This document shows, one piece after another, positions 48,904 through 63,927 of a stretch of 64,000 nucleotides of DNA (position 1 is its first letter; every line of letters begins with the position of its first letter). The translations under genes and the position numbers were made by a program. This DNA comes from Sporosarcina sp. P33. Its GTDB lineage: Bacteria; Bacillota; Bacilli; Bacillales_A; Planococcaceae. The stretch lies in the NCBI RefSeq assembly GCF_002077155.1, contig NZ_CP015027.1, positions 2,086,501 through 2,150,500 of the forward strand, in the 5' to 3' direction. The notes beneath the pieces are model-generated. The model had not been told where the DNA came from and searched no databases. It worked only from the letters and a program-made list of their open reading frames with translations.

Positions 48904-50484
48904 ATGAATATTCAAGACGCATTAGCGATTGGTGACTTGACGAAAAGTAAGGTTGTTGCTGGATCTACTGGTATGACACGTACAATCACCTCTATCGAAG
49001 TAATGGAAGTTCCTGAAGTAGTCAGCTGGGTTACACCCGGGATATTAGTAATGACAGCGTTTTATTCCATTAAGAATGATAAGGACAAGCAAATTGAAAT
49101 CGTTCAGACGTTAATTGAAAAAAATGCGGCAGGTATTGTCATCAAACTTGGCCGATTCGTAGATGCATTGCCTGAGAAAATGCTGGCAATTGCGGATGAA
49201 GCGGACTTCCCCATTATAGTCATACCGAAAAATGTTTCCTATATCAATGTGCTTGCTCCCTTATATGAGCAGTTATACAAAGAGAAGCGGTTAAAGGAAA
49301 ACTCCTACCAGCCGCTAATAGATTTTGAATCTAAATCGTTCGCCTCTCTTTCAATAGCAATGGAAGAATTGAGTGAAATTATCGGAGGGCCATTATATAT
49401 AGAAGATAAAAAAGGCTCGCTGCTTTATTGTACGGAAAAATTTCTGCCGAATGGCTGGCGGGATTCCAGTTCCTTATTCTCTAGACCGATTCATGAGGAC
49501 TATGTAAAGCTTACCGGGGAATGGAAGAGTTCCCTGATACAAACCGGGGGAACTTCGCTGAAAATTGACGGTTTTCGGAAGATCCTTATCATGCCGTTAC
49601 TGTCTAACAAACACGTCTTTGGAATGCTTCATATCCCGTATACAGAAAAATTGGAAGCAGGCAACAGCCCAATTGAAAACCTGAAAGAAACTGCTGAAAA
49701 GATAGAAGAATTATTTATGAACGAACAGCTTTATTTGCAAAACAAGCGAATTGAACATCTTAAACGTCTGGAGCAATTTAACCAAGTGGATGAGGAAGGC
49801 CTTCAGTTAACGGAATACTTTGTTATTCGCTTCCATACCGGCTGGTTTGAAAAACATGATACATTGACACATTATCTGATTGATCATTCAAATATAGTAT
49901 TAAAAGAGCTTCTGCTCATGATGGAAGACATTCCGGACTGCACTTTTACATTGTTTGAAAAGCATGGTTACTTCTATGCATTGCTGGAATGTGAAAAAAA
50001 CAAGGATATGTCTGTTATGCAATCACTCAAAACAATGGCTACAGAAAGCGCCCATTCACTGACAATCGCAGTGGCTCCAATTGAAAGAGACAGTCGCTTG
50101 CTGACGGACAGTATCCGGTTGGCGGATAAAACTATGGAAATCGGACGCCTTATTAGAAAAGAAGAGAATTTCTATACCTATGATCAATTGGGCATTTATG
50201 AGATTCTTATCAACTTAACGTCACAAAGTGCGGTGAAAAATTATACAGAGGGCATTTTAGAGCCGTTGTCTGCAAATCAAAATAAAGAGTTACTTCACAC
50301 GCTGGAAATCTATTTGAATGAGAATGGAAATGTGACAAAGGCATCGGAAAAATTATTCATTCACAGAAGAACACTGACATTCCGGCTGCAAAAAATACAA
50401 GAACTGCTGCAAATGAATATTGATGACGCGGAAAATCGCTTCATTTTGAACTTTTGCTTGCGAATAAAATCTGTAGATCAGTAG
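48904..50484 (+). CDS. PucR-family transcriptional regulator
   Basis: A 526-residue regulator. The N-terminal PucR domain (about 1-125) reads VLVAxSTGMTRTI-like here as VVAGSTGMTRTITSIEVMEV and IVIKLGRFVDALPEKMLAIA. The middle is GGDEF-like or variable, and the C-terminal HTH (about 460-520) reads YLNENGNVTKASEKLFIHRR then TLTFRLQKIQELL. PucR proteins activate purine or amino-acid catabolic genes on sensing a pathway intermediate. It heads the catabolic cluster on the same strand, 126 bases before the first enzyme gene. AGGGGGG precedes the ATG. Confidence 0.93.
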   Translation: MNIQDALAIGDLTKSKVVAGSTGMTRTITSIEVMEVPEVVSWVTPGILVMTAFYSIKNDKDKQIEIVQTLIEKNAAGIVIKLGRFVDALPEKMLAIADEADFPIIVIPKNVSYINVLAPLYEQLYKEKRLKENSYQPLIDFESKSFASLSIAMEELSEIIGGPLYIEDKKGSLLYCTEKFLPNGWRDSSSLFSRPIHEDYVKLTGEWKSSLIQTGGTSLKIDGFRKILIMPLLSNKHVFGMLHIPYTEKLEAGNSPIENLKETAEKIEELFMNEQLYLQNKRIEHLKRLEQFNQVDEEGLQLTEYFVIRFHTGWFEKHDTLTHYLIDHSNIVLKELLLMMEDIPDCTFTLFEKHGYFYALLECEKNKDMSVMQSLKTMATESAHSLTIAVAPIERDSRLLTDSIRLADKTMEIGRLIRKEENFYTYDQLGIYEILINLTSQSAVKNYTEGILEPLSANQNKELLHTLEIYLNENGNVTKASEKLFIHRRTLTFRLQKIQELLQMNIDDAENRFILNFCLRIKSVDQ

Positions 50485-50521
50485 ACGTCTCTGAACGTCT
50501 ATTTTTTTATTGTGTAAATTA

Positions 50522-50561
50522 TGTGCAATGCAGTTGACTGAATATTGCACACTACTAACAT
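50522..50561 (+). promoter_or_regulatory. candidate operator/promoter of the catabolic operon
   Basis: A perfect inverted repeat, TGTGCAAT (50522-50529) and ATTGCACA (50544-50551), has arms centred 22 bases apart. TTGACT (50534-50539) lies between the arms and TAACAT (50556-50561) follows, so it would overlap a -35. The PucR protein encoded just upstream is the natural candidate to bind. Confidence 0.6.
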
Positions 50562-50610
50562 TACATTGAATAGTCAAACTATTTATAATCAATTCAAAGG
50601 AGTGATGGAA

Positions 50611-51258
50611 ATGTTGGGAATCATCAGGGTTTTGACAACAGACGATGAAAAGATTTTGCTCGAGCATGGAAGGCGCATGTGGGAAACAGATCAAATTCAA
50701 TCGATTACACGATGTATCCCAAATCAGCCAAATGGCATTTACGATCATAAGACAGAAGCAGAAGCGGTCCCAAAGATCATTTCTCTCGCTCAAGAACTCA
50801 TCAGTGAACCTGGGGTCAATGCCATTACGATTAGTTGTGCCGCTGATCCGGGGCTGCAGGAAGTAAAGGAAATAGCCAATTTTCCTGTCATGGGTGCAGG
50901 TGCATGTGGGGCTAAGGCGGCTATGCAAGCAGGACAAAAAGTTGCGGTGATAGGAATTACGGATACGGTTCCGAAAAATATCAAAAATGAATTAGGGGAC
51001 TGTTTTCATTCTTATACACATTCGCCAAACCTGCAAAAAACTACGGACCTGTTTACTGAACAGGCAAAAGCAGAATTACTGGCACTTGCGAATGAAAGAG
51101 TTAAATCGGGAGCCAATGTTTTATTGTTTGCCTGTACAGGATTTTCTACGATTCGCCTGAAAGCATATTTATCAAAAGCTATCCAAATACCAATTATTGA
51201 TTTGGTTGAAGCGCAGGCAGCCGTATATAAGCAATTCATAAAGGAGGGCAAGGGATGA
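50611..51258 (+). CDS. Asp/Glu/hydantoin racemase-family protein
   Basis: A 215-residue protein with the two-cysteine racemase architecture. The first is C76 in ITISCAADPGL and the second C175 in LLFACTGFST, each in a Rossmann-like half. The family interconverts enantiomers of aspartate, glutamate or hydantoins without a cofactor, and some members act as maleate isomerases. The ATG at 50611 follows AAAGGAGTG; upstream in-frame codons lack a ribosome site. It overlaps the next gene by four bases, so it is coupled to the OPT transporter. Confidence 0.85.
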   Translation: MLGIIRVLTTDDEKILLEHGRRMWETDQIQSITRCIPNQPNGIYDHKTEAEAVPKIISLAQELISEPGVNAITISCAADPGLQEVKEIANFPVMGAGACGAKAAMQAGQKVAVIGITDTVPKNIKNELGDCFHSYTHSPNLQKTTDLFTEQAKAELLALANERVKSGANVLLFACTGFSTIRLKAYLSKAIQIPIIDLVEAQAAVYKQFIKEGKG

Positions 51259-52826
51259 ATACAAAGACAAAAATATTTGATATACCGTTTGTAATATTTT
51301 CTATAATCATTTCAATATTTGGAGCCATCATTGGGATGCAGCTGATTACATCTTTAGGAATTACGCCGAACACATCAATTATCGGTGCGCTGATAGCGAT
51401 GCTGATCGCCAGAATACCCATGCAGATGTTTTATAAGTATCGGTCTATAGAGAATCAAAACCTTATTCAGACGTCAATCTCAGCGGCTACTTTCGGAGCG
51501 GCGAATAGTTTGCTCATTCCGATCGGTCTTCCATTTGTAATGGGGATGCCAGAGCTCATTACACCGATGCTGATCGGTGCAGGACTGGCTTTGTTCATCG
51601 ATGTATTTATTCTCTACAAAGTATTTGACTCCAAACTATTTGGAGCAAACGAAGCATGGCCGCCTGGCATTGCGACTGCTGAAGCTCTAAAAGCAGGGGA
51701 TCAAGGCGGTTCAAAAGCAAAATTCCTTGGAATCGGTATTGGAATCGGGGTAATCGGATCGTACTTTGGCATTGCAATGTCAGCATTTGGTGTGGCATTT
51801 ATCGGAAACATTTGGGCGTTGCTCATGTTCGGTATTGGTCTATTGCTTCGCGGCTATTCCGTTCCAATATTCGGTGTAGATTTAAATGAATTCTATATTC
51901 CGCACGGCATGATGATTGGTGCGGGCTCAGTTGCCTTACTGCAATTCGTCATCACGCTTTGGCAGGCGAAGAAACAAAAGAATGCGCAGCGTGAAGAAGC
52001 TGACTATAGCTGCACGCGCTCAGACAGTGATGTGAAAAAAGGATTTGGCATCGGTTTTCTGCTGTATTTAGTGTCCGCTCTGATTTTAGCGGTTATTGGC
52101 GGAATCATCGGCGACATGTCTGTTACACAGACTATTACGTTTGTACTGTTTGCAGCATTTGCAGCATTAGCCAGTGAAATCATCGTCGGAATTGCAGCCA
52201 TGCACTCGGGCTGGTTCCCGGCGTTTGCGGTGACATTGATTTCCTTGCTTATCGGTATGATGTTAGGCTTCCCGCCGATCGCACTGGCACTGCTTACAGG
52301 GTTTACGGCTGCGACAGGTCCAGCATTTGCTGATTTAGGCTATGACTTTAAATCAGGTGCAATCTTACGGAATCATGAAGTAAAAGCAATAGAGATATTT
52401 GGCCGCAGGCAGCAATTGAAAAGTTCATTAATCGGTTTTGGGGTAGCGGTTGTCATGGTCGCACTTTTCCATGATTCCTTCTTCGCACAAGATCTCGTAC
52501 CGCCAGTAAACTACGTCTATGCTACTACGATTGAAAGCGGCTTGGGCGGAAACGTTGGCATGTTGCTTCTTCTATGGGCAATTCCAGGAGCAATTATCCA
52601 ATTAATCGGCGGTCCCAGAAGACAAATGGGTATCTTATTCGCGACGGGGCTATTGATCGTTAATCCAATCGCAGGCTGGGCTGTACTTGTTGGTATCACA
52701 ATTCGGTTTATTGTACTGAAAGTAAAAGGTCCAGAGGCAGAATCTGCAATGTATACCATGGCGGCAGGATTTATCGCTGGGGACGCAATCTACAGCTTCT
52801 TCACATCACTATGGAAAGCAAAGTAA
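51255..52826 (+). CDS. OPT-family oligopeptide/small-molecule transporter
   Basis: A 523-residue protein with about 14 membrane helices. GANEAWPPGIATAEALKAG is the OPT/YSL hallmark, LASEIIVGIAAMHSGWFPAF and LGGNVGMLLLLWAIPGAIIQ are further conserved regions. OPT proteins import peptides or amino-acid-derived chelates with protons. In this cluster it is the likely importer of the compound processed by the racemase-, DUF917- and DUF1177-like proteins. Translationally coupled to the preceding gene. Confidence 0.9.
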   Translation: MNTKTKIFDIPFVIFSIIISIFGAIIGMQLITSLGITPNTSIIGALIAMLIARIPMQMFYKYRSIENQNLIQTSISAATFGAANSLLIPIGLPFVMGMPELITPMLIGAGLALFIDVFILYKVFDSKLFGANEAWPPGIATAEALKAGDQGGSKAKFLGIGIGIGVIGSYFGIAMSAFGVAFIGNIWALLMFGIGLLLRGYSVPIFGVDLNEFYIPHGMMIGAGSVALLQFVITLWQAKKQKNAQREEADYSCTRSDSDVKKGFGIGFLLYLVSALILAVIGGIIGDMSVTQTITFVLFAAFAALASEIIVGIAAMHSGWFPAFAVTLISLLIGMMLGFPPIALALLTGFTAATGPAFADLGYDFKSGAILRNHEVKAIEIFGRRQQLKSSLIGFGVAVVMVALFHDSFFAQDLVPPVNYVYATTIESGLGGNVGMLLLLWAIPGAIIQLIGGPRRQMGILFATGLLIVNPIAGWAVLVGITIRFIVLKVKGPEAESAMYTMAAGFIAGDAIYSFFTSLWKAK

Positions 52827-52839
52827 TGGAGGAATAATT

Positions 52840-53886
52840 ATGACAACAAGAACACTTACAAAAGAAGATGCTATCAACGGAGTATATGGAGGCTGTATTT
52901 TAGGCGGCGGCGGAGGAGGCTGGATCTCAGATGGCTTGGAGAAAACAGAGCAAGCTTTTGCTCTCGGCTCACCTCAACTTATCACGATAGATGAATTGAA
53001 AGATGAAGATTATGCAGCCTGTGTATCACTGGTTGGTGCCCCATCTGCAAGAAATGTATATATCAATAATGAACAGCTCGTTTCAACAGTGGAACGAGTA
53101 CAGCAAGAATTTTCAAAACCGATTAAAGCGCTCATGACAAATGAAAACGGCGCGGCCACTACTATTAACGGCTGGCTCCAAGCAGCTGCAACAGGACTTC
53201 CGTTTTTGGATGCGCCATGCAACGGCAGAGCCCATCCAACAGGATCTATGGGGTCTTTAAACTTATCGGAAGAAGAAGGCTACGTGTCAATCCAAGCATA
53301 TGCTGGCGGAGAAGGTGCCCGGCGAGTAGAAGGTGTTATCACCAGTACGCTGGATATTTCATCAAACGTAGTGCGTTCAGTCTCCGTAGAAGCAGGCGGC
53401 ATGGTAGGAGTTTGCAGAAACCCTGTATCCATTGGTCATATTAAAAAACATGCTGCGGTAGGCGGAATATCACAAGCTATTGAACTTGGCGAAGTCTTCT
53501 TCTCGGCAGAAGGCCCTGACCGGATCGAAGCGGTAGCTGCTCATTTAAAAGGCCGCGTCATTCATTCAGGCACAATCAGCCAGTTCGAATTAAAAGCTGT
53601 CAAAGGGTTTGACGTCGGCTTTGTCCAAGTGGATGATCTGGAGATGACGTTTTGGAATGAATATATGACGGTGGAGATGAATGGAGAGAGAAAAGGGACG
53701 TTCCCTGATCTCATTATGACATTTAACGCTGAAACAGGAATGCCCGTTGTCAGTGCGGAGCTGGAGGAAGGAATGAAGATCGCAGTAATTTCTGTGCCGA
53801 AAGAACATTTGAAATTAAGCTCGACGATGTTCAATGAAAAATTATTGCGTGTGATTGAACCGATTATTAACAAAACTATTCTTTGA
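52840..53886 (+). CDS. DUF917 / S-methyl-thiohydantoin desulfurase-family protein
   Basis: A 348-residue protein. GGCILGGGGGGWISDGLEKTE, FLDAPCNGRAHPTGSMGSLN (C and H possibly catalytic or metal-binding) and the C-terminal VISVPKEHLKL match the DUF917 family, now named after S-methyl-thiohydantoin desulfurase activity in some members. The reaction here may be on a hydantoin-like ring, but the substrate is not known. GGAGGAATAATT precedes the ATG. It lies 13 bases after the OPT gene and 15 before the DUF1177 gene. Confidence 0.85.
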   Translation: MTTRTLTKEDAINGVYGGCILGGGGGGWISDGLEKTEQAFALGSPQLITIDELKDEDYAACVSLVGAPSARNVYINNEQLVSTVERVQQEFSKPIKALMTNENGAATTINGWLQAAATGLPFLDAPCNGRAHPTGSMGSLNLSEEEGYVSIQAYAGGEGARRVEGVITSTLDISSNVVRSVSVEAGGMVGVCRNPVSIGHIKKHAAVGGISQAIELGEVFFSAEGPDRIEAVAAHLKGRVIHSGTISQFELKAVKGFDVGFVQVDDLEMTFWNEYMTVEMNGERKGTFPDLIMTFNAETGMPVVSAELEEGMKIAVISVPKEHLKLSSTMFNEKLLRVIEPIINKTIL

Positions 53887-53901
53887 AAAGGATGAGTACT
53901 T

Positions 53902-54843
53902 ATGTCATTAAAATATACAATGGACGTTATGGAAATTTTAGATGATATCCATGTCAGCGGAAAACAAATAGTCGATTTATTCGAGGGATTTGAACATTGT
54001 GAAGCTTCTTATAAGACAGTTACAGGTGCTGAAGGTTCTACAGACTTCGTGAAAATCATTGTCAAAGGAACAGAAGGCCGGCTTAGCGGAGGGGAGGCTC
54101 GAACACTTGGAATCGTTGGCCGTTTAGGCGGAATAGGGGCGCGTCCTCATAGAATAGGATTCGTATCAGACGGAGATGGGGCGGCGGCAGCGGTTTCAAT
54201 TGGTGTAAAACTCGCCAATATGTCGGTAAGGGGTGACCGTTTGCCCGGCGACGTCATTATTACTACACATATCTGTCCAACTGCCCCTACACAGCCACAC
54301 GAGCCAGTGGATTTCATGGGATCACCAGTAGATATCCTGACGATGAATCAATACGAAGTAGTACCCGAGATGGATGCGGTTGTTTCCATCGATACTACAA
54401 AAGGAAATCGGGTAATTAACCATCGCGGAATCGCACTGTCACCGACTGTAAAGTCTGGATATGTACTGAAATTCAGTGATGAATTACTTAGAATTATGGA
54501 AATGACAACAGGGGATCTGCCGGTAACATTTGCGGTGACTACGCAGGATATCACTCCTTACGGGAATGATGTCTATCACATTAACAGCATTCTGCAGCCT
54601 GCAGTCGCAACAGACGCCCCCGTAGTAGGTGTGGCAATCACTGCTAAAACAGCTGTACCAGGCTGTGGAACGGGTGCAAGTCATGAAGTGGATGTAGCGC
54701 AGGCAGTACGATTCACTATCGAAATTGCTAAAGAATATACAAGAGGTCAAATTGAATTCTATGACAGAAAAGAATTTGAACGTTTGGAAATGCTGTATGG
54801 TTCTATGAAACATCTCCAAACACTAGGGAATGAAGAAGCATGA
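53902..54843 (+). CDS. DUF1177 protein
   Basis: A 313-residue protein of the DUF1177 family, recognised from IVGRLGGIGARPHRIGFVSD, GDVIITTHICPTAPTQPHEP and VPGCGTGASHEVDVAQAVRF. The His- and Asp-containing segments could bind a metal, and the fold is not known to me. It overlaps the AroM gene by four bases. Its close partnership with the racemase, DUF917 and AroM genes argues for a shared pathway. Confidence 0.8.
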   Translation: MSLKYTMDVMEILDDIHVSGKQIVDLFEGFEHCEASYKTVTGAEGSTDFVKIIVKGTEGRLSGGEARTLGIVGRLGGIGARPHRIGFVSDGDGAAAAVSIGVKLANMSVRGDRLPGDVIITTHICPTAPTQPHEPVDFMGSPVDILTMNQYEVVPEMDAVVSIDTTKGNRVINHRGIALSPTVKSGYVLKFSDELLRIMEMTTGDLPVTFAVTTQDITPYGNDVYHINSILQPAVATDAPVVGVAITAKTAVPGCGTGASHEVDVAQAVRFTIEIAKEYTRGQIEFYDRKEFERLEMLYGSMKHLQTLGNEEA

Positions 54844-55511
54844 CAAAGAAAATCATAGGTGTTTTGACAATCGGACAGTCGCCGCGAACGGACGTGACTC
54901 CATTCATTCAATCCTATATGGGGCCAGACGTCACGATTATAGAAAGCGGAGGATTAGACAGCTTGACGGAAGAATCTATTCATTCTGTTGAACCTGAAGA
55001 CACTGATACTACCTATATTTCCAGATTGCGAAATGGCCAGTCCGTAAAAATCGGGAAAAGCAAACTCCTCCCTTTATTGCAGAAAGAATTAACCGAACTG
55101 GAGAGTAAAACGGATATTACATTAATGTTATGTACAGGTGATTTTCCCGCATTGCGCACGAAAAATCCTATTATCTATCCCGATCAAGTGCTAAATGAAA
55201 TGGTTAGGGCTATGTCACCGTCATGTCCGCTCGGGCTGATCATTCCATTAGAAGAGCAGAGAGAGAAATTGCTGGCGAAATGGGATCAGCAAGGGCTGAA
55301 GCTGCTTGCAGAAGCAGCATCGCCCTATGAAAAAAGTGATATCGCAGGAGCTGCACTTGCACTGCAAGAGCGAGGTGCCAGTATGATTGTGCTTGACTGC
55401 ATGGGCTATGATGAAGAGCATAAATTGGAGGCTGTAAAGAGCAGCGGGCTGCCGGTGATTTTGCCGCGTGCACTGGTTGCCCAAGTCCTGTCTGAGTTTG
55501 TGTCTGAATAG
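54840..55511 (+). CDS. AroM-family protein
   Basis: A 223-residue protein. IIGVLTIGQSPRTDVTPFIQ at the start, LMLCTGDFPALRTKNPIIYP and GASMIVLDCMGYDEEHKLEA define the AroM family, which resembles Asp/Glu racemase halves (two cysteines, in LCTG and LDCMGY). The biochemical function is unknown. It ends the first part of the catabolic operon and is followed directly by a strong terminator. Confidence 0.9.
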   Translation: MTKKIIGVLTIGQSPRTDVTPFIQSYMGPDVTIIESGGLDSLTEESIHSVEPEDTDTTYISRLRNGQSVKIGKSKLLPLLQKELTELESKTDITLMLCTGDFPALRTKNPIIYPDQVLNEMVRAMSPSCPLGLIIPLEEQREKLLAKWDQQGLKLLAEAASPYEKSDIAGAALALQERGASMIVLDCMGYDEEHKLEAVKSSGLPVILPRALVAQVLSEFVSE

Positions 55512-55534
55512 ACCCGGTTTTCCGGGTCTTTTTT
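55511..55534 (+). terminator. terminator after the AroM gene
   Basis: GACCCGG (55511-55517) and CCGGGTC (55522-55528) form a perfect seven-bp stem with a TTTT loop, then six T residues. Confidence 0.88.
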
Positions 55535-55552
55535 ACATGGGGGGGTAGTAAC

Positions 55553-56422
55553 ATGCCAGTTATCGCTTTATTCTTGCTCAGCGTACTGTGGGGCTCGACA
55601 TTCTATTTTACTAAGTTATTATTACCAGACTTCCATCCAGTGTCTATTGTATTTTATCGCTGCATATTTGGCGCGCTGACATTATTGCCATTTTATCTAA
55701 TGAAAAAAGAAAAAGGAAAATGTACTTGGGACGAGGTTCCTTTACTGTTGGGAATTCCTTTGCTGAGCGCAGGGATACCGTGGATACTAATGAGCATCAG
55801 TTTGCAGAACTTAGACACGACGATCAGTGCAGTGTTAAATGCAACGGGTCCGATATTTGGTGTGCTGCTTACTATGATTTTATTAAGAGAACGTGTAGAA
55901 AGAACAGCCATTATTAGTGTCATTGTTGGCTTCACGGGGATTTTCATTGCTTTTGCAATTGGTTCAGCAGAGACGAAAAGCTTTCAGGCAGGGAGTGCGA
56001 TTATATTGCTTCTGGCTGTGAACTTTTATGCGTTATCGTCTGTGTTAACAGGGAAGTTCTTAACGAAGTATTCAGTCGTGACCATATCCCTTTGTTCTAT
56101 GACGGCTGGCATCCTCTTTTCAGGTCCTATCATGCTGGCGGCGGATCCAGGCAGCCTGCAAGGATTTACAGACAGTCAAAATTTCTGCTGGTTTTTGCTG
56201 CTGGGCGGAGTCAACTCGGGTATAGGAAATTTACTTTTTTATTATATAGTGAAGTCTGGCGGAGCCATTTTTGCGCTTTCGATTACGTATTTGATGCCTA
56301 TCACAACAATTTTTTTAGGTTATTTTTTATTGAGTGAACCAGTAGGCCTGGGAACCTTTATTGCGTTAGTATTTGTGTTATATAGTGTATATTTATCAAA
56401 AAGAAAGGGTGCAGCAGAATGA
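55553..56422 (+). CDS. EamA/DMT-family transporter in the catabolic cluster
   Basis: A 289-residue, ten-helix protein. FLLSVLWGSTFYFTKLLLPD, IFGVLLTMILLRERVERTAI and ITYLMPITTIFLGYFLLSEP are typical of the EamA repeats. It overlaps the M29-like gene by four bases, so the two are coupled even though a terminator lies just upstream of this gene. GGGGGGG precedes the ATG. It may export a by-product or import a related amino-acid compound. Confidence 0.9.
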   Translation: MPVIALFLLSVLWGSTFYFTKLLLPDFHPVSIVFYRCIFGALTLLPFYLMKKEKGKCTWDEVPLLLGIPLLSAGIPWILMSISLQNLDTTISAVLNATGPIFGVLLTMILLRERVERTAIISVIVGFTGIFIAFAIGSAETKSFQAGSAIILLLAVNFYALSSVLTGKFLTKYSVVTISLCSMTAGILFSGPIMLAADPGSLQGFTDSQNFCWFLLLGGVNSGIGNLLFYYIVKSGGAIFALSITYLMPITTIFLGYFLLSEPVGLGTFIALVFVLYSVYLSKRKGAAE

Positions 56423-57330
56423 ATAACTTTCAACAAACAGTTTCTAAGCTAATGGTAAATAACTTTGAAGTAACAAAAGACATCAATGTGTTAGTTCTAA
56501 TGGATAAGAGTACTGAGGAATTGGGTAAGAAATTTGCAGATGCCCTGCAAGAAGATGGCTGGAAAGTACGTGAATATTGCATGGAAGATCGCACGAGGTC
56601 CGGAGAAGAACCTCCTCAGGAAGCTGCAGATGAAATGTTGAAATATGATCTGGTGTTTTGTTTGACGAAGCATTCATTGACTCATACAGTCGCCAGAAAG
56701 AATGCCAATACTCATGGAATCAGCGTCATTACAATGCCGGGTATTACCGAAGATATGTTTTTAAACGGTGCGATGTCCGCTGATTACAGCCGGGTGGAAG
56801 AGGAAACGTTTAGTATGACGGAGAGATTAACAGAGGCGAATACGGTTACTATTCAAACAGGGGAAGCGCATGAACTAGTCATACCAGTAACCGGCCGTGA
56901 CGGAGTACCAAGCACAGGGGTATTCCGCGGACAAGCGGCGTCTGGAAACCTCCCGTCTGGCGAAGCATATATTGCGCCGCTTGAAGGGGAAGCGGAAGGA
57001 AGAATTGAAATAAACGGATCAATTTCGGGTATAGGATTAGTGGCGGAGCCTGTACTATTAACGATAGAAAAAGGCCGGTTAATTGACGCCAGCGGAGAGG
57101 ACGGAAAGAAATTGCTGGACCTGCTGGGTGATGGAGACGGAAGGTATTTATGCGAACTAGGTATTGGGACAAATCACGCAGCTCGTTTAACCGGCAATAT
57201 TCTTGAAGATGAAAAAGCGTATGAAACAATCCATGTCGCATTTGGTTCCAATCATACATTTGGCGGAAAGATTAAAACAAATGTGCATATTGATTGTGTG
57301 ACGAAAAATCCAATAGTAAGTTGGCAATAA
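56419..57330 (+). CDS. M29-type metallopeptidase-like / NicX-like protein
   Basis: A 303-residue protein of the aminopeptidase T (M29) superfamily, which also includes ring-cleaving 2,5-dihydroxypyridine dioxygenases. GEAYIAPLEGEAEG, CELGIGTNHAARLTGNILED, TIHVAFGSNHTFGG and VHIDCVTKNP hold the Glu, Glu, His, His and Asp residues that bind the metal in this family. In this setting it could open or hydrolyse the compound imported by the cluster. A terminator follows. Confidence 0.82.
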   Translation: MNNFQQTVSKLMVNNFEVTKDINVLVLMDKSTEELGKKFADALQEDGWKVREYCMEDRTRSGEEPPQEAADEMLKYDLVFCLTKHSLTHTVARKNANTHGISVITMPGITEDMFLNGAMSADYSRVEEETFSMTERLTEANTVTIQTGEAHELVIPVTGRDGVPSTGVFRGQAASGNLPSGEAYIAPLEGEAEGRIEINGSISGIGLVAEPVLLTIEKGRLIDASGEDGKKLLDLLGDGDGRYLCELGIGTNHAARLTGNILEDEKAYETIHVAFGSNHTFGGKIKTNVHIDCVTKNPIVSWQ

Positions 57331-57506: not shown

Positions 57507-58580
57507 TTACACATATTTAGATTCAATTATATCTAATATTGCATTTCCTACTTCTATTGTACTCGCGCTGCCGCCTAAATCAGGAGTCAGCGCAGACTTT
57601 GTCGTCAATAACTCCTCAATGGAATCCAGCAACAGTTTTCCAAGGTCTTCATATCCAAAGAAATCGAACATTTGACTGGCTGACCAGATTGCTGCCAATG
57701 GATTCGCGATATGCTGTCCGGCAATATCGGGCGCGGAACCATGCACTGGCTCAAACATAGAAGGGTAGCTCTTTTCAGGGTTAATATTCGCTCCGGCAGC
57801 GAGACCCATTCCGCCAGCAAGTGCGGCACCCAGATCGGTTAAAATATCACCGAATAAATTGGACGTCACGACAACTTCAAACCGCCCCGGATCTTTAATC
57901 ATCAGCATGGCCGCGGCATCAACGAGATAGCTTGCCGTCTGAACATGCGGATAGTCTTTACTCACTTCTTCAAACACTTCGTCCCAAAAAACCATCGAAT
58001 AATTCAGCGCATTTGCTTTACTGATGCTCGTCAGTGTCTTCCCCATAGCTGAAGCAGTTTCAAATGCATAGCGAATGATGCGCTCCGTTCCTTTGCGCGA
58101 GAAGACGCCTGTCTGCAGTACGACTTCTTCTGGCTTCCCTTTAAACAGCCAATCACCGGCACCCGCGTATTCACCTTCACTATTTTCGCGAATAAACAGC
58201 ATGTCGATCGTTTCCTTCGAACCGTTTTCAATCGGACAAGGAGCTCCATTCAATAGCTGGATCGGCCGAATATTCACATACTGATCAAACTGCTTTCGGA
58301 TAATCAAGAGCAAATCCCATAAGGAAATATGATCCGGAACCCCCGGAAAACCGACAGCCCCTAAATAAATGGCATCGAACTTCTTCAACTGTTCCATCCC
58401 GTCAGGCGCCATCATACTTCCGTGCTCCAGATAATATTCACAGCCCCACGGAAAATACGTGAACTCAAAGGACAGGCGGCCATCCAATTCCGCTGCCTTT
58501 TTCATTACCTTTATGCCTTCATCAACCACTTCCGGCCCAATCCCGTCTCCGGCAATTACCGCAATGTTAAATGTTTTCAT
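57507..58580 (-). CDS. tartrate / isopropylmalate dehydrogenase-family enzyme
   Basis: A 357-residue NAD-dependent decarboxylating dehydrogenase of the isocitrate/isopropylmalate family. GDGIGPEVVDEGIKVMK opens it, DQYVNIRPIQLLNGAPCPI follows, and GSAPDIAGQHIANPLAAIWS is the C-terminal nucleotide block. The sequence between these (LWDLLLIIRKQFDQYVNIRP) is most like tartrate dehydrogenase/D-malate dehydrogenase (TtuC, DmlA). It probably oxidises a hydroxy-diacid brought in by the adjacent TctCBA transporter. It is read in the same direction as the LysR gene upstream. Confidence 0.88.
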   Translation of the reverse strand: MKTFNIAVIAGDGIGPEVVDEGIKVMKKAAELDGRLSFEFTYFPWGCEYYLEHGSMMAPDGMEQLKKFDAIYLGAVGFPGVPDHISLWDLLLIIRKQFDQYVNIRPIQLLNGAPCPIENGSKETIDMLFIRENSEGEYAGAGDWLFKGKPEEVVLQTGVFSRKGTERIIRYAFETASAMGKTLTSISKANALNYSMVFWDEVFEEVSKDYPHVQTASYLVDAAAMLMIKDPGRFEVVVTSNLFGDILTDLGAALAGGMGLAAGANINPEKSYPSMFEPVHGSAPDIAGQHIANPLAAIWSASQMFDFFGYEDLGKLLLDSIEELLTTKSALTPDLGGSASTIEVGNAILDIIESKYV

Positions 58581-58679
58581 GTTTCAACTCATTTCTGTTT
58601 ATCATTATATTCCGTTAATAGATTATCATGGGTAATTCCATTTGTGTATAAGTTATTTTAGAATCTTAATTATATTTGA

Positions 58680-59582
58680 TTAATGAATATCCAAAATTTT
58701 TACTATTTCTTTTGCTACTTTAATAAAATGTTCCGCTGCTGCTTTTTTCACGCCGTTTTTGGAGGTCACTAAATTTAATTTTGAATAAAGAACCGGATCA
58801 GACAGCTCCAAAAGCGGGGGAAGATCCATTCCATCTAGTTTTGAGAAAGCTTCGGGACAAAATGCCACGCCCATACCTTTCTTTACCATATTGAGCATAG
58901 GTAAAGTTTCAGTTCCCCAATAAATGATGTTCGGATTAAATCCGCGAATATGACATTCTTCCAATATATCTTCAGAGATGCCATGACCGAAAGTTGTATG
59001 CTGCATAAAGAACTTCTCATCTTTTAGTTCATCTAATGTAATGGATTTATTGTCGGCCAAAGGATGGGAAGGCGGAAGGGCTACCAGCAATCTCTCAGAT
59101 AATAAAGGAATCGTATGCAAGTCTTCTTTATTAAAAACATTACGCAAAATTCCTATGTCCATCTTATGATGACGTATTTGCTCCAGTATATAGGCCGCGT
59201 TGCCTTCCTTGACATGGATAATAATCGGTATATCCCGTTCATTAAAGTAATGAACAACTTCGGGAATGATTGTTAGATTTGCAATAGTTGAAGACCCGAT
59301 CGTAATATGTCCGCCTTCACCTTGATGATGTTCATGAATTTCTTGAATAATTATTTCTGCAGACGCCAATAACTCTTTTCCGCGCCTATATAATAACCGT
59401 CCGGTATCGTTCAGATACATCCTTTTCCCGATTCTGTCGAATAAATTGACGCCTATTTCATCTTCAAAACCTTTGATTGCCGCACTTAACGGCGGTTGGG
59501 TAATATTTAGTGCTATGGCGGCTTTTGAAATGGTGCCGTGTTCAACAACTGCCATAAAATACTTTAGTCTTTGAATATTCAA
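58680..59582 (-). CDS. LysR-family transcriptional regulator
   Basis: A 300-residue regulator. The N-terminal winged HTH contains HGTISKAAIALNITQPPLSA and DEIGVNLFDRIGKRM. The C-terminal inducer-binding fold spans about 90-295. It is divergent from tctC and probably controls both the transporter and the dehydrogenase. The start is TTG at 59582, with AGGGGGC at usable spacing. Two identical-pattern sites lie in the divergent intergenic region. Confidence 0.92.
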   Translation of the reverse strand: MNIQRLKYFMAVVEHGTISKAAIALNITQPPLSAAIKGFEDEIGVNLFDRIGKRMYLNDTGRLLYRRGKELLASAEIIIQEIHEHHQGEGGHITIGSSTIANLTIIPEVVHYFNERDIPIIIHVKEGNAAYILEQIRHHKMDIGILRNVFNKEDLHTIPLLSERLLVALPPSHPLADNKSITLDELKDEKFFMQHTTFGHGISEDILEECHIRGFNPNIIYWGTETLPMLNMVKKGMGVAFCPEAFSKLDGMDLPPLLELSDPVLYSKLNLVTSKNGVKKAAAEHFIKVAKEIVKILDIH

Positions 59583-59606
59583 TGAAGCATGCCCCCTTAT
59601 TCCTTA

Positions 59607-59670
59607 TATACGAAAAAGATATATAGAATACACTTAATATATATTTTACATTTATACGAACACCATATAT
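59607..59670. promoter_or_regulatory. two TATACGAA-N4-ATATAT sites between LysR and tctC
   Basis: TATACGAA-aaag-ATATAT (59607-59624) and TATACGAA-cacc-ATATAT (59653-59670) are direct repeats 46 bases apart in the divergent promoter region. They look like binding sites for the LysR protein encoded alongside. Confidence 0.6.
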
Positions 59671-59760
59671 TATAACACTACGTTTAAATTTTCTGAAACC
59701 TTACCTAGGAGTTTCAGAAAAAGAGCGCATAAATTTTAAAGAAAAAGAGGAGGAAATAAA

Positions 59761-60759
59761 ATGATTAAAAATAGTAAAAAGCTTATGATGCTTTTTCTTA
59801 CATTGGCACTTGTTATTCTCACTGCCTGCAATAAAGATAGCGGAAGTGAAAGCGCTTCATCGGGTGATTTGGATTATCCGAAGCGCCCGATTAGTTTGAT
59901 AATCCCTTATGGTCCCGGGGGAAGTGCGGATGTACAAGCCCGCTTGATCGGTCAATCTCTGCAAAATCAATTAGGGCAGACGGTTAACGTGGTCTCTAAA
60001 CCTGGCGGCGCAGGAGCAACAGGAATGAACACGCTGAAAGGATCAAAACCAGATGGCTATACAATTATTCTAACGGCTGTCGGACCTTCTACATTGACGC
60101 CAAATGCAAATGACGTGGGATATAACGTGACGGAAGACTTTTACCCGATTGCTCAGATTTCTGAAGCACCGTATGGCATAGCAGTTAATTCGGATTCAGG
60201 TATCAATTCTCTGGATGAACTTCTGCAATTTGCAAAAGAAAATCCAGGACAAGCTACGTACGGAACTACTGGTGCCGGATTGCATCAACACGTTGTTACT
60301 GCTGAATTTTTAAATCAGATTCCAGATACAGAAATGGAGCACGTTCCATTCGATGGAGGGGCGGAGGCTGTCAGTGCATTACTTGGCAATCATATCACGG
60401 CTTCAGTAAATACTATTTCTGAGATTACCCCTCATGCAGAAAGTAACGCACTTAAAATTCTTGCGGTAACTTCAGATGAAAGATTAGAGAATCTGCCTGA
60501 CGTGCCAACCTTTAAAGAATTAGATTATGAATTGGTTGGTCAAGGTGCTTGGTTTGGTTTCATGGCACCTAAAGATACACCAAAAGAAATAGTAGACAAA
60601 TTGGATGAAGCAATTAAAAATGCATTGGATGAAGACAAAGTAAAGGGGCAGTTCCAAAATGCGGGACTTCCAATCAACTATCTTAACTCTGATGAATTTA
60701 AAGAAAAAGTATCAAATGAAAATGAGAAGAATGGAAAAGTAATTCAGTCGTTAAATTAA
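59761..60759 (+). CDS. tctC: tripartite tricarboxylate transporter substrate-binding lipoprotein (TctC/Bug)
   Basis: A 332-residue lipoprotein with a signal ending in LTAC and the Bug-family motifs YPKRPISLIIPYGPGGSADV, VNVVSKPGGAGATGMNTLKG and EHVPFDGGAEAVSALLGNHI. It binds a carboxylate (citrate, tartrate, or an amino-acid-like acid in some Bug proteins) for the TctAB membrane complex. GAGGAGG precedes the ATG. It is first in tctC-tctB-tctA-M20. Confidence 0.94.
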   Translation: MIKNSKKLMMLFLTLALVILTACNKDSGSESASSGDLDYPKRPISLIIPYGPGGSADVQARLIGQSLQNQLGQTVNVVSKPGGAGATGMNTLKGSKPDGYTIILTAVGPSTLTPNANDVGYNVTEDFYPIAQISEAPYGIAVNSDSGINSLDELLQFAKENPGQATYGTTGAGLHQHVVTAEFLNQIPDTEMEHVPFDGGAEAVSALLGNHITASVNTISEITPHAESNALKILAVTSDERLENLPDVPTFKELDYELVGQGAWFGFMAPKDTPKEIVDKLDEAIKNALDEDKVKGQFQNAGLPINYLNSDEFKEKVSNENEKNGKVIQSLN

Positions 60760-60788
60760 AATAACACGACATAGGTGGTATGGAATCT

Positions 60789-61232
60789 ATGAAAAAAGAA
60801 ATTAGTGATATTTCTACAGGTATAGTTTTATTGTTGTTTTCAGTGATTGGTTATTTTTTCTCTTCAAAGTTAAAAGTAGATTCTACTATTAAATACGGGC
60901 CGGATTTCTTTCCCAAATTGGTCTTCCTGTTAATTGCGGTTACCTCTGTTATTTTACTAATCACCGCAATACTGCGTTTCAAGCGCAGTAAAGACGTAAT
61001 AGCCTTTAATGGAAAGACAGTCTTTGGAGTAGTTCTATTCATTATTGTGCTGCTCGGCTATATAGCATTATTCTTTCAAACGGGGTTCATTATTTCAACC
61101 ATAGTATTCCTTTTTATTGGGCAGTGGTTATTTGGAATTCGGAAGATTCCAATCTTGATCGCTACGTCTATACTGTTGCCGTTTGTTTTATATTACGTGT
61201 TTACTTTCCTTTTCAAAATTCCATTACCTTAA
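60789..61232 (+). CDS. tctB: tripartite tricarboxylate transporter small subunit (TctB)
   Basis: A 147-residue, four-helix membrane protein. GPDFFPKLVFLLIAVTSVIL is the family-typical second-helix region, and FQTGFIISTIVFLFIGQWLFG follows, split here across two helices. It forms the membrane pair with TctA. The ATG at 60789 is preferred; GGTGG lies eight bases upstream and an ATG at 60780 abuts it. Confidence 0.9.
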   Translation: MKKEISDISTGIVLLLFSVIGYFFSSKLKVDSTIKYGPDFFPKLVFLLIAVTSVILLITAILRFKRSKDVIAFNGKTVFGVVLFIIVLLGYIALFFQTGFIISTIVFLFIGQWLFGIRKIPILIATSILLPFVLYYVFTFLFKIPLP

Positions 61233-61254
61233 ACTTTAAAAAGGAGGGGATACT

Positions 61255-62760
61255 GTGTCCCCAGATATTATTGCAGGATTACTATTCGCTTTGGCTCCGG
61301 TCGCACTCCTTGCTAACTTAGCAGGAGTTGCACTGGGCATTGTATTTGGAGCATTGCCCGGGCTCACAGCGACAATGGGGCTGGCATTATTAATACCGCT
61401 GACATTCGGAATACCGCCTATCGTTGCGTTCAGTGCATTGCTGGGCGTGTATGTTGGAGCCGTCTATGCCGGTTCTATCACGGCTATCCTCGTTGGAACA
61501 CCAGGAACTGCAGCAGCAGCGGCAGCACTATTGGAAGGGCCGGCATTGACAAAAAGAGGAGAAGCGAAAAAGGCACTTACCATGACGACTGTTGCATCTG
61601 TAATTGGCGGAATTTTCAGTTGTGTGGTGCTGATTCTCATTTCACCGCAATTAGCAAAGTTTGCTTTAACGTTTGGACCTCCAGAATATTTTGCTTTGGC
61701 AATTTTCGGCTTATCGATAGTGGCGGGCGTATCGGGGAAGTCACTATTAAAGGGCGTTATTGCAGGCTTAATAGGATTAATCATTGCTTCTATTGGACTA
61801 GATCCGGTTAAAGGAACAGAAAGATTTACTTTTGGCAGTGTAGATTTATTAAACGGAATTAACGTGGTACCTGCTTTGGTTGGGTTATTCGCAATTTCAG
61901 AAGTCTTGACAAGGATGGAAGGTAAAAGCGAGCAATTGCAAAGTAAGATAGGGTCGACTTCTATTGGCCTAAAGATGTCAGAGTTGAAAAGAAACTGGTT
62001 TAACTTGCTTCGTTCTTCAGCGATAGGAACATTTATAGGGATTATTCCGGCAACAGGATCAGGTGTAGCTTCATTCGTTGCTTATAATGAAGCAAAACGT
62101 GCCTCAAAAGATAAATCCCAATTTGGAAAAGGAAACGTAGATGGTCTGGCTGCAACTGAATCTGCTAATAGTGCAGTAACAGGCGGAGCATTAGTACCGC
62201 TGCTGACATTAGGAATTCCAGGTGATGTAATCACGGCAGTAATGCTTGGTGCATTGATGATACAAGGCCTGACACCGGGCCCTATGTTATTTACAACAAA
62301 TGCCGATGTGATTTATGGAATTTTCATGGCATTAATTGTAGCGAATATCTTTATGCTCGCATTGGGACTTGGAGCCACTAAAATATTCCCGAAGTTATTG
62401 CGCATACCGGAAGGAATTCTAATGCCGGTGATTGTGGTGCTTTGTGTATTAGGTTCATACTCCATCGCCAATTCAATGTTTGATGTAATGATCATGCTGA
62501 TATTTGGATTGTTGGGCTATGTGATGCTAAAAGTCGAATTACCTCTGGCTCCTTTACTGTTAGCCATGATTCTGGCACCTATCGCAGAAACAAACTTCAG
62601 AAGATCTATGTTATTGTCCCAGGAAAGTTTAAGTATCTTCTTCACAAGACCAGTCAGTGCAGTCATTTTAGTTATCACGTTCTTCGTATTTGGAAAAATT
62701 ATATTTAATGAATTCAAAAAGTACACGCTGGCAAGGAAATTAGAAAAGGAAAGTGATTAA
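61255..62760 (+). CDS. tctA: tripartite tricarboxylate transporter large permease (TctA)
   Basis: A 501-residue protein with about 12 membrane helices. GALPGLTATMGLALLIPLTF, AGSITAILVGTPGTAAAAAA and VTGGALVPLLTLGIPGDVIT are the conserved TctA loops. Driven by a proton or sodium gradient, it imports the ligand delivered by TctC. The start is GTG, with AAGGAGGGG upstream. It lies four bases before the M20 gene. Confidence 0.95.
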   Translation: MSPDIIAGLLFALAPVALLANLAGVALGIVFGALPGLTATMGLALLIPLTFGIPPIVAFSALLGVYVGAVYAGSITAILVGTPGTAAAAAALLEGPALTKRGEAKKALTMTTVASVIGGIFSCVVLILISPQLAKFALTFGPPEYFALAIFGLSIVAGVSGKSLLKGVIAGLIGLIIASIGLDPVKGTERFTFGSVDLLNGINVVPALVGLFAISEVLTRMEGKSEQLQSKIGSTSIGLKMSELKRNWFNLLRSSAIGTFIGIIPATGSGVASFVAYNEAKRASKDKSQFGKGNVDGLAATESANSAVTGGALVPLLTLGIPGDVITAVMLGALMIQGLTPGPMLFTTNADVIYGIFMALIVANIFMLALGLGATKIFPKLLRIPEGILMPVIVVLCVLGSYSIANSMFDVMIMLIFGLLGYVMLKVELPLAPLLLAMILAPIAETNFRRSMLLSQESLSIFFTRPVSAVILVITFFVFGKIIFNEFKKYTLARKLEKESD

Positions 62761-62763
62761 ATT

Positions 62764-63927
62764 ATGAGCGCGCAAGTCATGACAAAGCTTACCGAATACC
62801 TGGCTGCAAATGAACAAGAAGCCCTGGACTTTCTCAAGTCAATTGTAAATACAGACAGTTATTCTTACGATAAAGCAGGCGTCAATAATGTAGCCGCAAA
62901 GATTATGGAATTGCTTGACGGCAAAGGGATTTCCTATGAAGTAAGAGAAAATGAGGAATTCGGAAATCATATAATCGCTACTATTAAGGGGCCAAAAGAC
63001 GGGAAGATCCTACTGATGGGTCATATGGATACGGTCCATCCGGATGGAACGACAAAAGACAGACCGTTCGCCGTAGAGGGAAATCTTCTGCGCGGACCCG
63101 GAGTATCAGACATGAAAGCCGGCTTGGTGACGATGATTTATGCAGCTGCAGCGCTGAAGGAATTTGCTGTTGATGATTTATGCGATATTGAAATCTTGTT
63201 TACACCGGAAGAAGAAATTGGTTCCCCGATTTCGAGAGCAGTTATTGAAGAAAGAGCTAAGGATGCATTAGCAGTTTTTAATCTTGAAGCAGGGCGACCT
63301 GATGGTTCAGTTGTCACCGCAAGAAAAGGATCTGCTCATCTCAAAATTGAAGTAGAAGGAAAGGCATCCCATTCAGGAGCATTTATTGAAAATGGAATTA
63401 GTGCGAATGATGAACTTGCGTTAAAGATGATCAAAATTAAGGAACTAATGAATAATGATAAGGATGTAACCATTAATATTGGCATCATCCAGGGCGGTGT
63501 CAGCAACAATATGGTATCGCCGCATGCATCAGCTACGGTCCATTCAGGATTTTGGAAAACAGAAGATTTTGATGAAGTGTATAAAGAAATCGAAAAAATT
63601 GTAAATACATCATATATTCCAGGAACGAAAAGCAGTTTATCAGGCGGGGTCAGTATTTTGCCAATGGAATATAACGATGGCATAGCGAACCTTTACGAAA
63701 TTGTAGAAAAGTGTGCGCAGGACATGTCATTGCCAATCACAGAGCAGAAAACAAAAGGGGCCGCTGATGCAGGATTTGCCTCATCGATTGGAATACCTAC
63801 AATATGTGCAATGGGTCCCGTAGGCGGTAACTGGCATGCAGCCGATGAGTATATGGAATTGGATACATTTCTTCCGAGAATGGAATTGTTAATGCGATCG
63901 GTTCTGACATTTTCCAGAAGTATTTAA
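62764..63927 (+). CDS. M20-family peptidase / glutamate carboxypeptidase-like
   Basis: A 387-residue zinc metallopeptidase of the CPG2/ArgE type. LLMGHMDTVHPDG holds the first metal histidine (H87) and D89; GPGVSDMKAGLV holds the bridging aspartate, FTPEEEIGS the Glu pair and NLEAGRPDG the next ligand region. The dimerisation domain lies in the middle (about 185-295). It would hydrolyse an N-acyl- or carbamoyl-amino acid or a short peptide, consistent with the amino-acid-like theme of the cluster. It is the last gene of the tctCBA unit. Confidence 0.92.
   Translation: MSAQVMTKLTEYLAANEQEALDFLKSIVNTDSYSYDKAGVNNVAAKIMELLDGKGISYEVRENEEFGNHIIATIKGPKDGKILLMGHMDTVHPDGTTKDRPFAVEGNLLRGPGVSDMKAGLVTMIYAAAALKEFAVDDLCDIEILFTPEEEIGSPISRAVIEERAKDALAVFNLEAGRPDGSVVTARKGSAHLKIEVEGKASHSGAFIENGISANDELALKMIKIKELMNNDKDVTINIGIIQGGVSNNMVSPHASATVHSGFWKTEDFDEVYKEIEKIVNTSYIPGTKSSLSGGVSILPMEYNDGIANLYEIVEKCAQDMSLPITEQKTKGAADAGFASSIGIPTICAMGPVGGNWHAADEYMELDTFLPRMELLMRSVLTFSRSI

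Follow-up and report, generated by a model that had tools for sequence, protein, structure and literature searches.

The eight forward-strand genes at positions 48904-57330 of the 64,000-nucleotide stretch of Sporosarcina sp. P33 analysed here (C1:2086501-2150500 of a 3.24 Mb single-contig genome, hereafter the window) are tentatively read, with a confidence slightly short of an even chance, as a PucR-regulated cluster for the catabolism of peptide-derived compounds resistant to ordinary peptidases. On this reading the substrates would most likely be cyclic dipeptides (2,5-diketopiperazines) or close cyclic amides, including those with D-residues. The closest named relatives at the locus are Sporosarcina species. 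The eight open reading frames were recovered on the strand and at the positions given in a preliminary description of this DNA, and the family names proposed there for the eight proteins were each supported by a Pfam match above cut-off:

48904-50484, + strand: PucR-type regulator (PucR; PF07905 N-terminal, 105 bits; HTH_30 C-terminal, 67 bits)
50611-51258, + strand: Asp/Glu/hydantoin racemase-fold protein (Race; PF01177, 81 bits)
51255-52826, + strand: OPT-family transporter, predicted peptide importer (OPT; PF03169, 130 bits)
52840-53886, + strand: DUF917/S-Me-THD-like predicted ring-acting hydrolase of a divergent subgroup (PF06032, 79 bits; PF20906, 95 bits)
53902-54843, + strand: DUF1177 protein, core gene, predicted M17-aminopeptidase-like fold (PF06675, 445 bits)
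54840-55511, + strand: AroM-family protein with a racemase fold (PF07302, 236 bits)
55553-56422, + strand: EamA/DMT transporter, accessory (EamA; PF00892, 136 bits)
56419-57330, + strand: M29 aminopeptidase-like metalloenzyme, short version (PF02073, 44 bits, part of the domain only)

The cluster recurs well beyond the window. A scan for DUF1177 yielded 418 confirmed relatives, from which 79 distinct loci were kept (80 with that of the window); among these 80, AroM was present in 76, M29 in 65, PucR in 62, Race in 58, DUF917 and OPT in 55 each, and EamA in 15, and gene order was maintained across dozens of species. A larger set of 119 DUF1177 loci was pooled from several sources, with some genomes possibly counted twice and with archaeal and proteobacterial contexts thinly covered; in it, DUF917 occurs in 73 loci, and a PucR gene lies on the same strand at 9 kb or less from DUF1177 in 85. 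The distribution of DUF1177 itself is patchy (12 of 68 genomes sampled in the genus and 46 of 398 in the phylum Bacillota), and it is found together with AroM in 37 of the 398 Bacillota genomes versus 5.0 expected (Fisher p = 3e-37, nominal, the genomes being related). A failure of these genes to co-occur in other genomes had been named beforehand as one outcome that would refute the proposed scheme, and the opposite was found. Since order is kept across species and DUF1177 and AroM co-occur above expectation, the arrangement is more than chance. Locus after locus combines the uptake of peptides with a peptidase, a racemase and chemistry on rings.

The strongest support for a diketopiperazine substrate comes from the repeated and independent arrival of a cyclodipeptide oxidase in clusters that are otherwise unaltered, along with the exchange of peptide importers. 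Subunit B of the oxidase lies within the cluster in 8 of the 119 loci, a distribution that needs 8 changes on the DUF1177 tree under a rough tree model. In locus L074 the oxidase genes follow M29 directly, with overlaps or gaps under 20 bases, and the two subunits are closest in the PDB to AlbA (E 6e-24) and AlbB (within E 4e-4 to 6e-4). Three further loci (L018, L023 and L041) hold two tandem nitroreductase-like genes after M29, without a DUF6092 partner, at the position occupied by the oxidase elsewhere. The importer slot is filled by OPT in 68 loci, by a peptide-type ATP-binding cassette (ABC) transporter (SBP5/OppBC) in 35, by both in 1 and by neither in 15, and a tree quickly built from 114 sequences of DUF1177 requires at least 13 switches, again under a rough model. 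Because the slot was exchanged that often and almost never holds both, OPT and the peptide ABC systems would be functionally equivalent peptide importers. The two-cysteine signature of Race and AroM, a variable peptidase slot and the gene list published for cyclodipeptide-oxidase clusters without a synthase (PMC11055893) also argue for diketopiperazines.

Regarding the first of these, the Race open reading frame opens at 50545, and the start at 50611 is preferred from its ribosome-binding site (AAAGGAG) and from homologues. Its Cys78 and Cys177 (numbered from 50605), one per half as in the two-cysteine, pyridoxal phosphate-independent racemases, are invariant in 23 homologues, and its closest solved structure is 2EQ5, matched nearly end to end (E 3.7e-77). 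AroM has two cysteines as well, Cys98 and Cys187, which do not vary among 34 homologues, and its profile aligns with that of Race at an hhalign probability of 95.6% (E 1.3e-8). Judged by this family similarity and the two conserved cysteines, AroM is a remote homologue of Race within the two-cysteine racemase superfamily, with predicted racemase activity.

The DUF917 protein belongs to the S-Me-THD-like superfamily, with both Pfam matches above the cut-off of 27, and its AlphaFold2 model matches 2O3I (TM score 0.73). Against the NCBIfam equivalog models NF058529 and NF058532 it scored 274.3 and 231.6 bits, under their cut-offs of 440 and 450; since both were missed, its assignment as a thiohydantoin or S-methyl thiohydantoin desulfurase was dropped. 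The divergent subgroup that includes the window protein is found in 24 genomes, of which 22 have DUF1177, versus 2.8 expected (the genomes are related). One genome that lacks any DUF1177 match has a divergent DUF917 gene next to AroM (G377:C1:2448904-2450614).

These scores bear on the substrate put forward in the preliminary description, namely a modified amino-acid compound such as a hydantoin, to be imported, epimerised and hydrolysed. The sequence of steps fits in outline, given two two-cysteine racemase-fold proteins, a peptide-type importer and an aminopeptidase-like M29 enzyme; the hydantoin is not favoured, and we consider it less likely than a cyclic dipeptide. If hydantoins, thiohydantoins or N-carbamoyl amino acids were the compounds degraded, the racemases would act on the hydantoin ring, DUF917 would open it and another enzyme would decarbamoylate the product. 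Race and DUF917 belong to families named for such chemistry, HyuA lies near DUF1177 in 7 of the 119 loci, and an N-carbamoyl amidohydrolase is encoded downstream in one (L117). However, Pfam identified no HyuA, dihydropyrimidinase or carbamoylase in the window cluster, DUF917 falls far below both desulfurase cut-offs, and the genes that keep recurring nearby encode peptide transporters, peptidases and cyclodipeptide oxidase; oligopeptide ABC or OPT importers, M29, M20 and PepE would not be expected for hydantoins. Altogether this alternative appears unlikely, yet it is a serious rival. Three of the HyuA-bearing loci (L024, L025 and L033) combine HyuA with a nitrilase-type hydrolase and an NCS1 permease in a hydantoin- or pyrimidine-like set; there, DUF1177 is also accompanied by PucR and a distant DUF917, a different, hydantoin-like setting of the core protein.

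For the DUF1177 protein, an AlphaFold2 model built on 37 sequences reached a predicted TM score of 0.88, and the best 50 Foldseek matches listed for this predicted model were M17 leucyl aminopeptidases (E ~1e-9, probability 1.00, TM score ~0.5), so that an M17-like fold is likely, as modelled. By sequence, only chance-level matches were obtained in the PDB, and the M17 signature NTDAEGR is absent from the DUF1177 consensus. Sequence homology to M17 was rejected, the hhalign score being equalled by 32 of 100 column shuffles, and that to M42 peptidases was set aside as marginal (score reached in 1 of 60 shuffles). Six residues are invariant (D90, D92, H123, C125, H133 and D164) and would be suitable for a putative metal site. 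A bolder proposal, to which we give a rather low probability, is that prokaryotes widely share a so far unrecognised pathway in which cyclic dipeptides are opened and their stereochemistry is corrected; DUF1177 and AroM would be its core enzymes, and DUF1177 would represent a new metallohydrolase family cleaving the diketopiperazine ring. In clostridial clusters, DUF1177 adjoins a protein of ~280 amino acids sharing KGGTTVSA and SGR motifs (L106:8455-9297, - strand; L109:9705-10526, + strand; L116:8229-9062, - strand; L118:10021-10860, + strand), which stands between DUF1177 and AroM in L106, L109 and L116. The L106 copy matched no Pfam or NCBIfam model, which suggests an orphan family tied to the pathway.

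The M29 protein has 303 amino acids, and its Pfam match spans positions 194-350 of a 406-position profile, short of the full-length domain of about 410 residues. It retains the Glu/Glu/His/His/Asp set of M29 aminopeptidases as E182, E246, H272, H290 and D292, invariant in 24 homologues, which we take to be the metal ligands, as in these families, from an alignment with PepS and NicX. The PDB matches were PepS/AmpT/AmpS and NicX. The position of E182 is Glu in PepS and Phe in NicX, and that of E246 is His in NicX; hence the M29/NicX-type label given earlier holds in its first half, the protein looking more aminopeptidase-like than NicX-like from its sequence, and a role as NicX-type ring dioxygenase was set aside.

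The peptidase slot varies among DUF1177 loci, where M29, M20 or PepE may be found; four enterobacterial loci carry a PepE dipeptidase (331 bits, cut-off 156). PepE is assigned to Asp-X dipeptides, and its presence might, speculatively, point toward aspartyl diketopiperazines. PepE also speaks for another alternative, in which linear peptides containing D-amino acids or aspartate in a damaged form (D-Asp, isoAsp or succinimide) would be salvaged; here the racemases would convert the D-residue or the freed amino acid and metallopeptidases would cleave the chain. The recurrence of peptide importers and peptidases and the membership in the Asp/Glu racemase superfamily also speak for such a salvage, but it leaves unexplained both DUF917, with its presence in most loci, and the repeated arrival of the cyclodipeptide oxidase; we regard it as a serious rival as well, with a small share of the probability.

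Gene content and its conservation, the importer exchange, the conserved residues and the conservation of the repeat and hairpins are direct results of sequence and comparison. Returning to cyclic dipeptides, we infer the substrate class and the following course. PucR would sense the substrate or a product and activate the racemase promoter through an inverted repeat at 50522-50551, and OPT would import the compound; Race, AroM or both would epimerise the acidic alpha-carbon or carbons by a two-cysteine mechanism, DUF917, DUF1177 or both would open the ring, M29 would split the resulting dipeptide into amino acids, and EamA would possibly export excess product. Cyclic dipeptides are abundant and resistant to peptidases, and the cluster represents a concrete and widespread candidate gene set for their breakdown, offering two families without assigned activity (DUF1177 and AroM), a candidate operator and many culturable hosts.

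With respect to transcription, five of the seven gene-to-gene boundaries are tight, with less than 16 bases or none between the genes: overlaps of four bases (-4) for Race/OPT, DUF1177/AroM and EamA/M29, and gaps of 13 and 15 bases for OPT/DUF917 and DUF917/DUF1177. The tight spacing described earlier is thus correct, and its count of four falls one short. The two wider gaps are AroM/EamA (41 bases) and PucR/Race (about 126 bases), where the following elements were located:

50480-50503, + strand: terminator-like hairpin with a T run after pucR (similar hairpin after pucR in 13 other loci)
50522-50551, + strand: perfect inverted repeat TGTGCAAT-N14-ATTGCACA, found by script search, candidate PucR operator
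50560-50589, + strand: candidate sigma-A-type promoter ATTACA-18-TATAAT of the racemase transcript (10 of 12 consensus positions)
55510-55529, + strand: terminator-like hairpin AGACCCGG-TTTT-CCGGGTCT with a T run, between AroM and EamA (similar in 12 other loci)

In an alignment of 15 upstream regions, the half-site bases T-G-n-G-n-A and T-T-n-C of the repeat are invariant and a TATAAT-like box is conserved before the racemase. Further, the pattern TGTGnAA-N16-TTnCACA occurs once genome-wide, at this repeat, and a control pattern not at all. As a whole, the promoter scan found promoters no more numerous than in shuffles; single promoter or terminator scans are weak evidence, and conservation across loci is the stronger point. 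Because of the hairpins after PucR and AroM, and of a candidate promoter that precedes the racemase and has the conserved inverted repeat upstream, the eight genes probably do not form one plain transcript, and the layout is likely pucR, then racemase-OPT-DUF917-DUF1177-AroM, then EamA-M29, with read-through that the AroM/EamA hairpin may control. The cluster is probably activated by PucR.

Regulators of the PucR and IclR types typically go with catabolic genes, which argues against another alternative, a tailoring or detoxification of peptide secondary metabolites with EamA as exporter instead of a nutritional pathway. Cyclodipeptide oxidases are known from biosynthesis, EamA is present in the window cluster, and purine metabolism or secondary metabolites have been suggested for oxidase clusters without a synthase (PMC11055893). 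However, importers are far commoner than EamA (104 vs 19 of the 119 loci), and Pfam found no peptide-scaffold synthase among the eight genes, so that we consider this alternative the least probable of those weighed here.

Several observations also weigh against cyclic dipeptides as the substrate. For DUF917, the named relatives have five-membered thiohydantoins as their substrates, the substrates of bacterial OPT transporters are poorly known, and the HyuA-bearing loci described above point elsewhere. Subunit B of the cyclodipeptide oxidase is missing from the window genome (no PF19585 match), as it is from most DUF1177 loci, and the M17-like fold of DUF1177 stands on structure prediction, its M17 profile match being no better than shuffled columns. 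The enzymes behind bacterial hydrolysis of cyclic dipeptides were stated as unclear in 2013 (PMC3852281). In favour of cyclic dipeptides, as a hint only, the genome of P. chibensis NBRC 15958 carries the cluster (L059), and hydrolysis of cyclo(Asp-Phe) is reported for strain DSM 329, by enzymes unknown in the literature. DSM 329 differs from the sequenced strain and its activity is not inducible; in addition, DUF1177 occurs in 23 of 75 genomes of a Paenibacillus genus group anyway, so this is weak evidence.

The open literature searched contained one passing mention of DUF1177, and searches on diketopiperazine hydrolase genes, ergothioneine/thiohydantoin and the family accessions returned nothing further on the gene set. 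As far as these searches show, a cluster defined around DUF1177, its candidate operator and split transcription, the exchange of importers and the fold predicted for DUF1177 are undescribed. The earlier suggestion of a new pathway is therefore upheld in part: overlapping sets were noted in 2024, without DUF1177 and with another function suggested (PMC11055893), and novelty is moderate. Downstream, at 57507-63927, the - strand carries LysR and a gene resembling tartrate dehydrogenase (490 bits, cut-off 470), and the + strand next to them carries an M20 hydrolase and genes like TctC, TctB and TctA; together they look like a separate organic-acid uptake unit. This block was excluded from the cluster, since its nearest genes run in the other direction and none of the related loci is arranged likewise.

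Compared with known systems, Race, and AroM as a remote branch, share with the Asp/Glu/hydantoin racemase superfamily and with 2EQ5, itself annotated merely as a hypothetical racemase, the two conserved cysteines. The DUF917 protein aligns over almost full length to the models of thiohydantoin and S-methyl thiohydantoin desulfurases, and differs from them as a divergent subgroup tied to DUF1177 and AroM. The DUF1177 model resembles M17 leucyl aminopeptidases, whereas its identity to the structural matches is just 10-14%. The M29 protein keeps the C-terminal metal-site region of PepS/AmpS/AmpT and NicX; it is ~100 residues shorter than PepS, and has Glu at the Phe and His positions of NicX, a 2,5-dihydroxypyridine 5,6-dioxygenase. 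Finally, the closest published counterparts are the cyclodipeptide-oxidase clusters without a synthase, around which hydantoin (PF01177) racemase, DUF917, AroM, OPT or peptide ABC transporters, EamA and peptidases have been reported (PMC11055893, Nat Commun 2024). The window cluster differs in lacking the CDOA and CDOB oxidase pair, and the paper makes no mention of DUF1177; nonetheless, racemase, DUF917, AroM, transporters and peptidases are held in common, and some DUF1177 loci do hold the oxidase. Should catabolism of cyclic dipeptides prove true, these synthase-less clusters would gain a catabolic reading.

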